From Acetobacteraceae bacterium (lineage in GTDB: Bacteria > Pseudomonadota > Alphaproteobacteria > Acetobacterales > Acetobacteraceae): a stretch of 33,520 nucleotides of DNA. The stretch spans positions 1-33,520 of the forward strand of contig JANXTL010000332.1 in assembly GCA_025352375.1 (NCBI GenBank), given 5' to 3'. How positions within the stretch are numbered: the stretch's first letter is position 1; each line of letters opens with the position of its first letter. Made by a program: the position numbers and the translations under genes. Under the pieces are notes generated by a model that saw nothing but the letters and a program-made list of their open reading frames with translations, ran no database searches and was not told the origin of the DNA. This document shows positions 10,434 through 15,710 of this stretch, one piece after another.

Positions 10434-10566
10434 TCCTTGCAAACCCTTTGCGTCCGGCCGATAAGCGCCCCGCGCTTCCCATATCCGCTCCTCCCATATG
10501 GCGTGCGGCGCCGAAACGCCAACGGCCTTCGTCGGATGGGACGTCAGCAGGAGTTATAGAGACAAG

Positions 10567-11829
10567 ATGCCCTGGAACAATGGCGACCCGAACCAAGGCC
10601 CAAGCGGCGGACCAAGCCCTTGGGGAACCGGTGGCGGTGGAAACGAAGGCCCTGGCCAACCCCCTCCCGGAGGACCCCAATCCGGTGGGCCGAATCGCGG
10701 CCGGCCACCGGGCGGTCCGCCGGATCTCGATCAGATCATCGCCCAGGCGCAAGCTTTCATCCGCAACCTGCTCGGCGGCGGGGGTGGCGGTAACGGGCGC
10801 GGCCCCGGCGGTTCGGGCGGCGGCGGTTTCTTGGGCGGCTTCTTCAGCAGCGGCCGCGGCCTGGCCACGCTGGCGCTGGCTGTCGTCGCCTTGTGGCTCG
10901 CCACCGGCGTCTATCGCGTGCAACCGGACGAACAGGGCGTGATCCTGCGGTTCGGCGCTTACGTCGACAGGACCTATCCTGGATTGCACTGGCATTTGCC
11001 CTGGCCGATTGAGGAAGCGCGCAAACCCGCCGTCACCCGCATCAACCGCACGGAGATCGGGTTCCGCTCCGGCCCCGCCGGCCTGATGGAAAGCGGCCGC
11101 GATGCCGGCGGGCGCGACGTGCTGGCGGAAAGCCTGATGCTAACCGGCGATGAGAACATTATCGACATCGATGTCGCGGTCTTCTGGCGCATCCGCGCCG
11201 GCGACGAACTCAGCGTTTCGCGCTTCCTGTTCAACGCCAGCCAGCCCGAAAATCTTGTCCGGGGCGTGGCGGAAAGCACCATGCGGGAGGTAATCGGCCG
11301 TACCCCCATCCAGCCCGCGCTGACGCAATTGCGGGCACAGATCGAAGCCGATGTGATGCGCCAGACGCAGCAGATTCTGGATCGTTACGACGTGGGCGTC
11401 GAAATCACCCAGGTACAGTTGCAGAAGGTCGATCCCCCGGCCGCCGTGATCGAAAGTTTTCGGGACGTGCAACGTGCCAATACGGACGCTGACCGGATGC
11501 GGAACGAGGCTGAGTCGTATCACAACGATATCGTGCCCCGGGCGCGTGGCGACGCGGCGCGGATCGTGGCTGAGGCGCAAGGCGTGAAGCAGGCCTCCGT
11601 CGCGCAAGCGACCGGACAGGCACAACGGTTCGAAAGCGTGCTGGCGGCCTATCAACTCGCCAAGGACGTGACCCTGCGACGGATGTATATCGACACCATG
11701 ACGGACGTGCTCATCCACGCGCACACGCTGGTGGTGGACGACAGGCTGAAGGGCCTTGTGCCCTTCCTGCCGCTGAACATCCCCACGGCCGTACCCGCCC
11801 CACCCACCGGCGCGGGAGCACCGAAATGA
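10567..11829 (+). CDS. hflK: HflK, FtsH protease modulator subunit
   Basis: This 420-residue SPFH-domain membrane protein forms with HflC the HflKC complex, which surrounds and modulates the FtsH protease in the inner membrane. The N-terminal ~95 residues are Gly/Pro-rich and cytoplasmic, followed by one membrane segment (LATLALAVVALWLATGVY). The SPFH domain begins at VQPDEQGVILRFGAYV and includes the family stretch PENLVRGVAESTMREVIGR. I chose the ATG at 10567 because the protein then opens with MPWNN, typical of HflK; an in-frame start 69 bp earlier is not. It overlaps hflC by 4 nt and is divergent from mrp. Confidence 0.96.
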   Translation: MPWNNGDPNQGPSGGPSPWGTGGGGNEGPGQPPPGGPQSGGPNRGRPPGGPPDLDQIIAQAQAFIRNLLGGGGGGNGRGPGGSGGGGFLGGFFSSGRGLATLALAVVALWLATGVYRVQPDEQGVILRFGAYVDRTYPGLHWHLPWPIEEARKPAVTRINRTEIGFRSGPAGLMESGRDAGGRDVLAESLMLTGDENIIDIDVAVFWRIRAGDELSVSRFLFNASQPENLVRGVAESTMREVIGRTPIQPALTQLRAQIEADVMRQTQQILDRYDVGVEITQVQLQKVDPPAAVIESFRDVQRANTDADRMRNEAESYHNDIVPRARGDAARIVAEAQGVKQASVAQATGQAQRFESVLAAYQLAKDVTLRRMYIDTMTDVLIHAHTLVVDDRLKGLVPFLPLNIPTAVPAPPTGAGAPK

Positions 11830-12704
11830 ACCGTCATTTGATCGCCGGGATCGCGGCGCTGGTCGTCATCGCCATCGTCGTGAATTCGAGCCTGTTCACC
11901 GTCAACCAGACCCAGCGCGTACTCATCGCGCAATTCGGCAAGGTCGTGAACACCATCGAAAGCCCCGGCCTGCATGCCAAAATCCCCTTCGTACAGGACG
12001 TCATCACCTTCGACCGTCGTTTGCTGAACGTCGAACTGCCGGGTGAGGAAGTGATCCTGGGCGACCAGCGGCGCCTGATCGTCGACAGCTTCACCGTCTT
12101 CCGTATCACCGACCCGCTCAAGTTCTACCAGGCGGTCGGTCCGATCCCCGATGCGATCAAGGGGCGCCTGAACTCGATCGTGACATCGTCCCTCCGCCGG
12201 GTGATGGGCAAAAACTCCCTGCTCGACGTGCTTTCGGCGGACCGCGAGCGGATCATGTCGACGATCCGCGAGCAGGTGAACGCCGACATGGCGAATTTCG
12301 GCGTCTCGATCGAGGACGTGCGTATCCGTCGCGCCGACCTGCCGGTGGAAAACACCCAGGCGATTTTGACGCGCATGCAATCGGAGCGTCAGCGAATCGC
12401 CGCCCAGGCTCGGGCGGAAGGCGCGGAAGCATCGGCCCGCATCAAAGCGGATGCCGAACTGGAACGCACCGTGTTGCTTGCCGATGCGCGTGCGACGTCC
12501 GACAAGCTGCGCGGCGAAGGCGAGGCCGAAGCCACCCGTCGCTATGCCGAGGCGTTCAATAAGGACCCGAAGTTCTTCGGCATCTGGCGTACGCTCCAGG
12601 CCTATCGCGACGTATTCGACGCAGGCGGCGCACGGTTGGTACTTACGCCGGACAACGAGTTCCTTCATTATCTGCAAGCCGCGCCAGCGCCCACGGGACC
12701 GTGA
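11826..12704 (+). CDS. hflC: HflC, FtsH protease modulator subunit
   Basis: This 292-residue partner of HflK has one N-terminal membrane segment (about residues 5-24) and an SPFH domain from VNQTQRVLIAQFGKVV. Family motifs include PGLHAKIPFVQDV, then LGDQRRLIVDSF and the coiled-coil ERQRIAAQARAEGAE region. The ATGA overlap with hflK indicates coupled translation. Length matches the family. Confidence 0.96.
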   Translation: MNRHLIAGIAALVVIAIVVNSSLFTVNQTQRVLIAQFGKVVNTIESPGLHAKIPFVQDVITFDRRLLNVELPGEEVILGDQRRLIVDSFTVFRITDPLKFYQAVGPIPDAIKGRLNSIVTSSLRRVMGKNSLLDVLSADRERIMSTIREQVNADMANFGVSIEDVRIRRADLPVENTQAILTRMQSERQRIAAQARAEGAEASARIKADAELERTVLLADARATSDKLRGEGEAEATRRYAEAFNKDPKFFGIWRTLQAYRDVFDAGGARLVLTPDNEFLHYLQAAPAPTGP

Positions 12705-14374: not shown

Positions 14375-14404
14375 ATGCCGGGACGTGGTACACGTTCCCG
14401 GCAT
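14375..14404 (+). terminator. Hairpin after the Do-like protease gene
   Basis: ATGCCGGGA pairs with TCCCGGCAT, extended by CGTG/CACG after a single bulged base, with a 3-nt loop. It starts 20 bp after the protease stop codon. The T run is missing, so termination may be partial and could let transcription reach the SPFH-like gene. Confidence 0.5.
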
Positions 14405-14480: not shown

Positions 14481-15710
14481 ATGTTCGCACGCATCATCGG
14501 ATCGCTGGTCGTGATCGGGGTCTATGAATTGGTCATGATCCTGCTGCTGCCACGCCTGCTGCTCGCCTCTGGGCAAGTCGCTGGCGCGCAATTCGACAAC
14601 AGCGATAATTCGTTCCTCTATGCCACGGTCCAAATGGGGTTGAATGGGCGGTACGGTGTGCTGCCCGCATGCTTCCTGTTCGTCGCGCTGCTGGCGATCT
14701 GGTGGGGCCCGATCGCGCGGCGCTTGGGCAACCGCACCACCGTCACCGCCATTGCGATGATGCTCGGGATCGGCCCGGCGCAGGCATACTACGACAAGAC
14801 CGACTACACCGAGGCCTACACGATCCTGCCGAATGAATCGGCGTTCTGGATCCCGGATGGCGGCGCCAATAAAGACAACCAGACCCAGTTCGATTCCGAG
14901 ACGTACCTGAATGCCAACAAGGTGCCCTTGAAGCGCTTCATCGTACCGCATGTGAAATTGCAGGGATCGGGCGGGTTTTACGATTTCTACGTCCCGGCCG
15001 GGCGGCTGATCATCGTCGACCGCACCACCTACAGCCGGGAGTGGGTCGATGCCACCGACCGCGGCACATCGAAAAAGAAAGAAGGCTTCCCCTGCCAGAC
15101 CGTCGAAGGGCTGAACATCACGGTCGGTATGTCGATCGGCGCTTCGGTGACCGAAAACAACGCGGCCAAATATCTGGGCCGCTTTGGGGTGGTGCCGATC
15201 ACGGGCGAACGTACCAATCCGGCGATCATCTTCAATTCGGTCTATTACAGCCGCCGCCTCCAGGACGTGATGGACGATGTCGGCCGCAAGAAGGTGCAGA
15301 CCCTCGTTTGCGCCGAGATCACCGCGCGGACGTTCGACCGAGCCAACGCCGAAGCCAATAAGATCATCGAAACGGTTTTAGCCAAATCCACCGAGTATTT
15401 CGCGTCGGTCGGCATATCGCTCGATTTCCTGGGCTGGGCGGATACGTTTACCTTCGACCACGACGTGCAGGACGCGGTGAACCGCCGCTATATCGCCGCG
15501 CAGGATAAGGAAATCGCGGCCGCGCTAGCGCCGCATGCCGATACGATCCAGAAGCTGGCAGCCGCCAGCGCACTGCGCTCGTTTGGCCTCCGCAGCGACG
15601 GCAAACTGCCCACCACGATCGTCGGACTGCCGCCGGACCTCGGGGGGTTGCTGGGGAGCTTGCTTAACGCGGGTGCGCCCCCGCCCCATCCGGCCCCGCC
15701 GGCGCGCTAA
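14481..15710 (+). CDS. Multi-spanning SPFH-like membrane protein, unassigned
   Basis: This 409-residue protein is not a named family I can recall. Hydrophobic segments lie at about residues 4-29, 59-77 and 87-104. They are followed by a domain that reads like an SPFH/band-7 fold: a GRLIIVDRTTYSR strand, then PCQTVEGLNITVGMSIGASV and ENNAAKYLGRFG. A helical stretch (RANAEANKIIETVLAKS) and GISLDFLGWADTFTFDHDVQ follow, matching the order seen in prohibitin/HflC proteins. The C-terminus is Pro-rich. Start ATG at 14481 has AGGGGAA upstream. Its location after hflKC-degP suggests a role in membrane protein quality control, which is an inference. The stop codon overlaps the convergent serB stop (CTAA, 15707-15710). 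Confidence 0.75.
   Translation: MFARIIGSLVVIGVYELVMILLLPRLLLASGQVAGAQFDNSDNSFLYATVQMGLNGRYGVLPACFLFVALLAIWWGPIARRLGNRTTVTAIAMMLGIGPAQAYYDKTDYTEAYTILPNESAFWIPDGGANKDNQTQFDSETYLNANKVPLKRFIVPHVKLQGSGGFYDFYVPAGRLIIVDRTTYSREWVDATDRGTSKKKEGFPCQTVEGLNITVGMSIGASVTENNAAKYLGRFGVVPITGERTNPAIIFNSVYYSRRLQDVMDDVGRKKVQTLVCAEITARTFDRANAEANKIIETVLAKSTEYFASVGISLDFLGWADTFTFDHDVQDAVNRRYIAAQDKEIAAALAPHADTIQKLAAASALRSFGLRSDGKLPTTIVGLPPDLGGLLGSLLNAGAPPPHPAPPAR

Follow-up and report, generated by a model that had tools for sequence, protein, structure and literature searches.

An ORF encoding a protein of 409 amino acids lies downstream of hflK, hflC and degP in an Acetobacteraceae genome. The stretch of DNA containing it (contig JANXTL010000332.1, 33,520 nucleotides) is called the window below. 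A sequence-only reading of the window described the product as a divergent SPFH-like protein with three hydrophobic segments at its N-terminus, and proposed that it is a third member or regulator of the FtsH-HflKC assembly, or that it builds a membrane ring of its own. HflK and HflC have a single N-terminal anchor, which stays uncleaved, and FtsH as their partner. The locus raises the question of whether its gene order reveals what the protein does, or whether the protein belongs to a different system.

Prokaryotic SPFH proteins comprise twelve subfamilies, and those of SPFH-NfeD operons and of HflKC-FtsH work with a membrane partner, according to the available extracts of PMC2636767. The words "phage" and "lipoprotein" are absent from the available text of PMC2636767 and from that of PMC13086221. 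SPFH proteins of phages occur, in the extracts available to us, as annotations or mass spectrometry entries (PMC1524935, PMC10892097, PMC6034870, PMC7760394, PMC10269572, PMC5834331), and a prophage SPFH protein has been studied as a Pasteurella virulence factor (excerpt of PMC9872710). In the literature extracts searched on phage SPFH proteins, there was no account of a two-transmembrane (two-TM) partner, a fused form or an internal signal peptide, and the literature searched assigned no role to phage SPFH lipoproteins.

In this study, we describe the window protein as a fusion of two proteins that are encoded by separate genes elsewhere. The explanation that we favor, and consider probable, is that a periplasmic SPFH system of two parts occurs here in a fused version of the phage type, made as a precursor that is cleaved and encoded by a phage gene that the bacterium has kept.

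Results and Discussion

The ORF and its immediate locus

The ORF runs from ATG to stop (Table 1). Pfam and NCBIfam matches identified the preceding genes as hflK (10498-11829), hflC (11826-12704) and degP, in this order; the 409-aa ORF follows degP, as the sequence-only reading had placed it, at a distance of 125 nt, and is convergent with serB. Six orthologues at the degP site had a pN/pS of 0.25, similar to DegP (0.25) and SerB (0.23), and the ORF is therefore under purifying selection and is not a chance reading frame. Within these degP-site orthologues, pN/pS was 0.15 for the SPFH domain and 0.55 for the two-TM module. So weak a constraint on the latter would be surprising in an essential partner and speaks against the explanation that we favor.

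A hairpin between degP and the gene (-25.6 kcal/mol over a 64-nt stretch, z -3.1), which has no T run and is absent from the sequence-only reading, may represent the end of the degP transcript. Because of this strong hairpin, co-transcription of the 409-aa gene with degP is not evident, and the hairpin favors a transcript of its own for the gene in the bacterium. A single copy of the fused SPFH gene is present in the genome.

Table 1. Features of the 409-aa gene and its upstream region in the window
Feature	Residues	Positions	Strand	Evidence and remarks
Hairpin between degP and the 409-aa gene		14375-14404	+	folding energy; no T run
Whole gene (two-TM module, signal-peptide-like segment, SPFH domain, C-terminal helix)		14481..15710	+	full-length homologues, alignment; 409 aa, stop codon included in the range
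Two-TM module	1-85	14481..14735	+	helices 2-36, 44-57, 60-84; separate gene in split relatives
AGxQFxNSD motif, predicted periplasmic loop	34-42	14580..14606	+	alignment; A34, G35, Q37 invariant
Signal-peptide-like segment	86-102	14736..14786	+	Ala102 at -1 in 31/31; predicted cut after residue 102
SPFH domain	103-326	14787..15458	+	profile, AlphaFold, Foldseek, VIA-align; pN/pS 0.15
Cys205	205	15093..15095	+	28/28 fused rows
Cys277	277	15309..15311	+	27/28 fused rows
Long C-terminal helix	327-371	15459..15593	+	alignment, AlphaFold; DGKLP region and Pro-rich tail 3' of the helix

SPFH fold of the C-terminal part

The proposed SPFH nature of the C-terminal part was upheld, weakly by sequence and strongly by predicted fold. 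The Pfam Band_7 profile (PF01145) matched the window protein with an E-value of 6e-4 and 20.3 bits, below the cut-off of 23.6, which is passed by the related proteins gp65 (32.9 bits) and SSU5 (108.7 bits). Among PHROGs, phrog_200, named "lipoprotein", matched residues 199-361 (E 1.3e-7; 169 of 379 profile positions). No NCBIfam family matched at E up to 1, including the HflK and HflC equivalogs TIGR01932 and TIGR01933, which both neighbors pass, and a PDB sequence search yielded no credible relative. An MFS_2 match in Pfam (E 0.027, below cut-off) falls on residues 46-112, which are mostly hydrophobic, and an MFS transporter fragment was rejected.

Modeled alone from a 45-sequence alignment, the protein was predicted by AlphaFold with a mean pLDDT of 82.8. 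Foldseek searches of the PDB with this model placed prohibitin, stomatin, flotillin and HflK/C on top (E from 7.6e-9, for prohibitin, upward); the QmcA-YbbJ chain (structure 8z5g) was also among the fold matches. VIA-align gave Z up to 12.6 over about residues 102-383, and this part of the model has the SPFH fold.

Position beside hflKC-degP

Could the protein join the FtsH-HflK-HflC assembly as a third subunit, or regulate it? It adjoins hflK-hflC-degP, HflK/C are among its best fold matches, and its SPFH domain is predicted to lie on the periplasmic side, as in HflK/C. Phages do target FtsH, as the available extract of PMC1838920 reports for CIII of phage lambda. We nevertheless regard either role as improbable, since the hflK and hflC models do not match the protein, its viral homologues lie among phage genes, and its position varies as follows.

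The gene was present in 11 of 33 genomes of the genus. It lies beside serB in seven of them (with degP visible on the other side in six) and elsewhere in four. From the viewpoint of serB, 30 loci were examined in the genus: seven with the gene adjoining serB, seven with degP and serB and no gene between them, four with degP further off and the gene absent, and 12 without degP in the examined stretch. The empty degP-serB junctions span 51-213 nt between tblastn ends, and three of these seven genomes (G004, G007 and G013) carry the gene elsewhere. Other bacterial copies are found beside ATP synthase and glycogen-debranching genes (L027), beside purH and a heparinase-like gene (L028), or adjoining genes for a PLP enzyme and a short-chain dehydrogenase (L032); the neighborhoods of three GC-rich loci (L025, L026, L030) were not used, because a simple gene caller produced antisense calls there. 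The seven rows at the degP site form one clade in the tree (support 100/97), and no hflKC-degP matches to the neighbors in the window were found in the viral stretches L014-L019.

According to the tree, the degP-adjacent site was thus gained once. As the site was gained in a single clade, position does not define the gene, and its adjacency to hflKC looks accidental. Linkage to hflKC is limited to this clade, and the survey of gene neighborhoods in relatives therefore spoke against a role in FtsH-HflKC deduced from position, which was ruled out as the main reading. A putative membrane ring of its own, the other suggestion made from the sequence, is the direction we prefer.

A mainly viral family

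Full-length relatives of the protein are mostly 42-52% identical to it and are found on large tailed-phage contigs; in a viral collection, 22 contigs (up to 157 kb) had relatives. The gene occurred in 15 of 299 genomes and 7 of 102 genera in a sample of the family, in 2 of 385 genomes in the class sample (own genome included), and in 1 of 398 genomes sampled across the phylum, this one being the own genome. Viral neighbors were identified from ten proteins of five contigs (L015, L017, L019, L036, L039). On four of these, the neighbors are of phage type: UvsX-like recombinase, SbcC/SbcD-like subunits, single-strand binding protein, clamp loader, helicases and tail tube; the neighborhood on the fifth (L019) includes a ribonucleotide reductase. 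The family is mainly viral, and the window gene is a chromosomal copy of a mainly tailed-phage protein.

In two phage contigs, L019 (4408-5004, Pfam Abhydrolase) and L037 (2104-2688, by eye), the fused gene is immediately preceded by an alpha/beta-hydrolase-like gene; L038 repeats L037.

A bacterial gene acquired by phages, rather than the reverse, is an unlikely alternative origin. SPFH proteins are widespread in bacteria (PMC2636767, in the extracts available), and the base composition of the gene is not foreign (GC3 0.81, compared with 0.77-0.82 for its neighbors), so that odd composition as a sign of phage origin had to be discarded: GC and GC3 resemble those of the neighbors and give no support. 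Against a bacterial origin, viral sequences make up the split outgroup and the majority of the fused rows, the bacterial ones fall in several places of the tree, and the gene is rare in bacteria outside its own family. The tree labels "viral" and "other bacterial site" change four times each, and the fork uniting 13 bacterial rows has support of only 87/91. The suggested direction from phage to bacterium rests on this nesting and on the sampling.

Two genomes hold incomplete sequences of the gene. In G004, two pieces of it lie at contig ends (L013 1498-1833, N-terminal, 39-41% identical to the query; L010 46-969, C-terminal, 73% identical) and are perhaps two different copies. In G027, the contig ends within the gene (L031 1-699), which also contains an internal stop, reflecting either decay or an assembly error.

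Fusion of two proteins encoded separately in most related phages

Most related phages, which are more distant from the window protein than those with the fused gene, encode its two halves by adjacent genes. Two such ORFs, one for a two-TM protein (74-93 aa) and one for an SPFH lipoprotein, occur in phage G (gp64 and gp65), on a Paenibacillus plasmid and in a record of a faecal phage. By hhalign, the separate two-TM proteins match the fused protein over residues 1-85 (probability 97.9, E 3.5e-13). They share a motif of the AxxQLxDSDxAY type, in which QLxDSD is the counterpart of AGxQFxNSD in the fused form. The window protein is therefore a fusion of a two-TM module, a signal-peptide-like segment and an SPFH domain, with both halves homologous to separate genes; the fused form means that the two halves belong together. 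Modeled alone, the two-TM module had a pLDDT of 92.6 and no Foldseek match in the PDB at E < 0.001; its modeled fold is a plain helical hairpin and is uninformative.

Within the fused clade, the viral contig L055 carries the halves in a pair of ORFs that overlap by 8 nt at ATGACTAA. Its small ORF matches the fused two-TM module (hhalign E 1.2e-18), and the second ORF has AGGAG upstream and its own signal-peptide-like start. We read this single contig as a secondary split.

A two-gene module of phage SPFH lipoproteins

Pairing of the two genes was scored as an ORF of 45-135 aa with exactly two hydrophobic segments, ending between 170 nt before and 60 nt after the SPFH start. Such a neighbor was found in 26 of 37 non-redundant split SPFH cases, compared with 4 of 123 control genes from these loci (Fisher 2.9e-17), the latter taken from the gene caller that gave antisense calls at GC-rich loci. 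The sample consisted of 23 of 30 viral loci, L034, L035 and L055, and 16 of 17 GenBank phage loci, giving 42 cases, or 37 at 80% identity. Excluded were L068, L070, L074, L075 and L085 (match values duplicating kept rows), L087 (a fragment), L083 (fused) and L106 (frame broken). The GenBank loci comprised 16 from 60 of the 339 matching records, plus the query phage Meara (L090). Four of the 11 cases that failed appeared two-TM-like by eye (L061, L063, L064, L078), leaving seven without a clear two-TM neighbor: phiEa21-4, CcrRogue, PBS1, and viral contigs L065, L067, L071 and L072.

Close enterobacterial loci, which are near copies of each other, passed the test in 78 of 80 cases; their two-TM protein is PHROG_1130. 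The SPFH lipoproteins are widespread in phages, with matches to one query in 339 of 50,697 phage records. DNA resembling the SSU5 pair was present in 727 of 5,426 E. coli genomes, and in 195 of these the match extended over at least 80% of the pair. A two-TM neighbor is general for phage SPFH lipoproteins. The enterobacterial two-TM family, compared as a control, had no detectable homology by hhalign to the Gram-positive and fused type (E 0.22 and 0.014). A single common origin of all two-TM partners was rejected on this basis, and the pairing may thus have arisen more than once.

In the N4-type phage AlfredRasser, the two-TM/SPFH pair (L098 559-1983) is directly 3' of a gene labeled superinfection exclusion protein. 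The SPFH protein of PBS1 (L103 1123-1929), labeled lipoprotein, lacks an obvious lipobox Cys, and the ORF upstream of it has one hydrophobic segment.

Predicted export and cleavage

All three hydrophobic segments reported for the N-terminus are present (about residues 5-30, 60-81 and 87-101), but the third resembles a signal peptide and not a third anchor. We examined it in 31 rows, i.e., 28 fused proteins plus L029, L050 and L055; L031, L052 and L053 were left out because the region was absent or they were near copies. Position -1 is Ala in 31/31 rows and -3 is Ala in 25/31 (the others having V, V, P, S, C and T). Across residues 60-112, only W74, A102 and E111 are invariant in the 28 full fused rows, and the region is otherwise variable. 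The stretch before Ala102 has the form of a signal peptide: basic, then hydrophobic with a short core, then often containing Pro or Gly. The lipobox Cys of the split SPFH proteins aligns on or beside Ala102, the column shifting by one residue between alignments. In the AlphaFold model, confidence is lowest at residues 96-103 (pLDDT < 50).

A positive-inside charge pattern, found in 28/28 fused rows, places the SPFH domain outside the cytoplasm, and its export to the periplasm is well supported. The conserved Cys205 and Cys277, which in the alignment are candidates for a disulfide pair, suit this location.

Signal peptidase I probably cuts after Ala102. Alternatively, the third segment may be a TM anchor, giving one uncleaved three-TM protein with a periplasmic SPFH domain. 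HflK/C keep such an anchor, and cleavage of the window protein is a prediction; set against this are the invariant Ala at -1 and the predominant Ala at -3 within a variable stretch, the short hydrophobic core, the alignment with the lipobox Cys, a processing site in the split forms, and the low model confidence around the site. We consider the uncleaved form possible, at roughly one chance in three or slightly less.

Proposed mechanism and role

In the mechanism we propose, the precursor would insert in the inner membrane so that its N-terminus stays inside. Its two-TM hairpin would expose the short AGxQFxNSD loop in the periplasm and return to the cytoplasm, and the signal-peptide-like segment would export the SPFH domain. 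Cleavage would then yield two partners from one precursor, and the SPFH part would probably form a ring or cap around the two-TM partner, on the periplasmic face of the inner membrane. During infection, the phage pair may guard or reorganize the inner membrane; exclusion of other phages, or control of a machine in this membrane such as FtsH, is the most likely way. An Acetobacteraceae lineage would have taken the gene from a phage and kept it.

In its most specific form, the proposal is that of a tailed-phage "polyprotein", whose internal signal peptide would allow signal peptidase I to release two partners, one a two-TM protein and the other a periplasmic SPFH subunit, which would build a membrane dome together. 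It would be the fused form of an unrecognized two-gene module in hundreds of phages, and alphaproteobacteria would have captured the fused gene more than once and kept it. We put this version at slightly short of an even chance.

With regard to role, the leading options are exclusion of other phages, held tentatively, and control of FtsH or another inner-membrane machine, which is less likely still. A small TM protein combined with a lipoprotein is a common composition of superinfection exclusion systems, which the two-part organization resembles. The gene might accordingly act in exclusion or immunity in both settings, blocking genome entry of other phages and being kept by the bacterium for resistance. 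The filing of PHROG_1130 under moron/host takeover and the label next to the N4-type pair fit this possibility, which we rate as doubtful: that label is the depositor's, the fused forms of large phages have replication genes as neighbors, and PADLOC matched none of its families to five proteins, although a new system would escape the listed models.

Comparison with known systems

The closest known proteins are the members of PHROG_200, i.e., the SPFH lipoproteins of SSU5, P1-like, N4-type and rv5-type phages and gp65 of phage G. Like the window protein, they have an SPFH domain, are exported and carry a C-terminal G-K-L-P region. They differ in that their two-TM gene is usually a separate one just upstream, whereas the module is fused in the window protein, which has Ala102 at the lipobox Cys column and matches the profile only partially. 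Both gp64 and gp65 of Bacillus phage G are homologous to the corresponding halves, but they are two ORFs, and gp65 is a predicted lipoprotein (LAGC). HflK/HflC share the SPFH fold, the predicted periplasmic side and the inner membrane; with their single anchor and FtsH partner, they differ from the window protein, which their equivalog models do not score.

SPFH-NfeD operons such as QmcA-YbbJ also combine an SPFH protein with a small multi-TM partner (PMC2636767, in the extracts available). Unlike these, the window protein is fused and predicted to be exported, and NfeD was absent from the Pfam matches of its two-TM module up to E 1.

Recognizing the common phage SPFH lipoproteins as one half of a two-part membrane system makes them a concrete and testable object. 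Internal cleavage by a signal peptidase, as predicted from the fused form, would be uncommon in a bacterial protein, and the gene would exemplify how chromosomes acquire and retain a membrane gene of phages.

In GenBank, the labels of phage SPFH lipoproteins range from "lipoprotein" to "putative transposase" and "putative serine protease" (L091 and L090-type matches); the latter two, present in many records, are apparently wrong.
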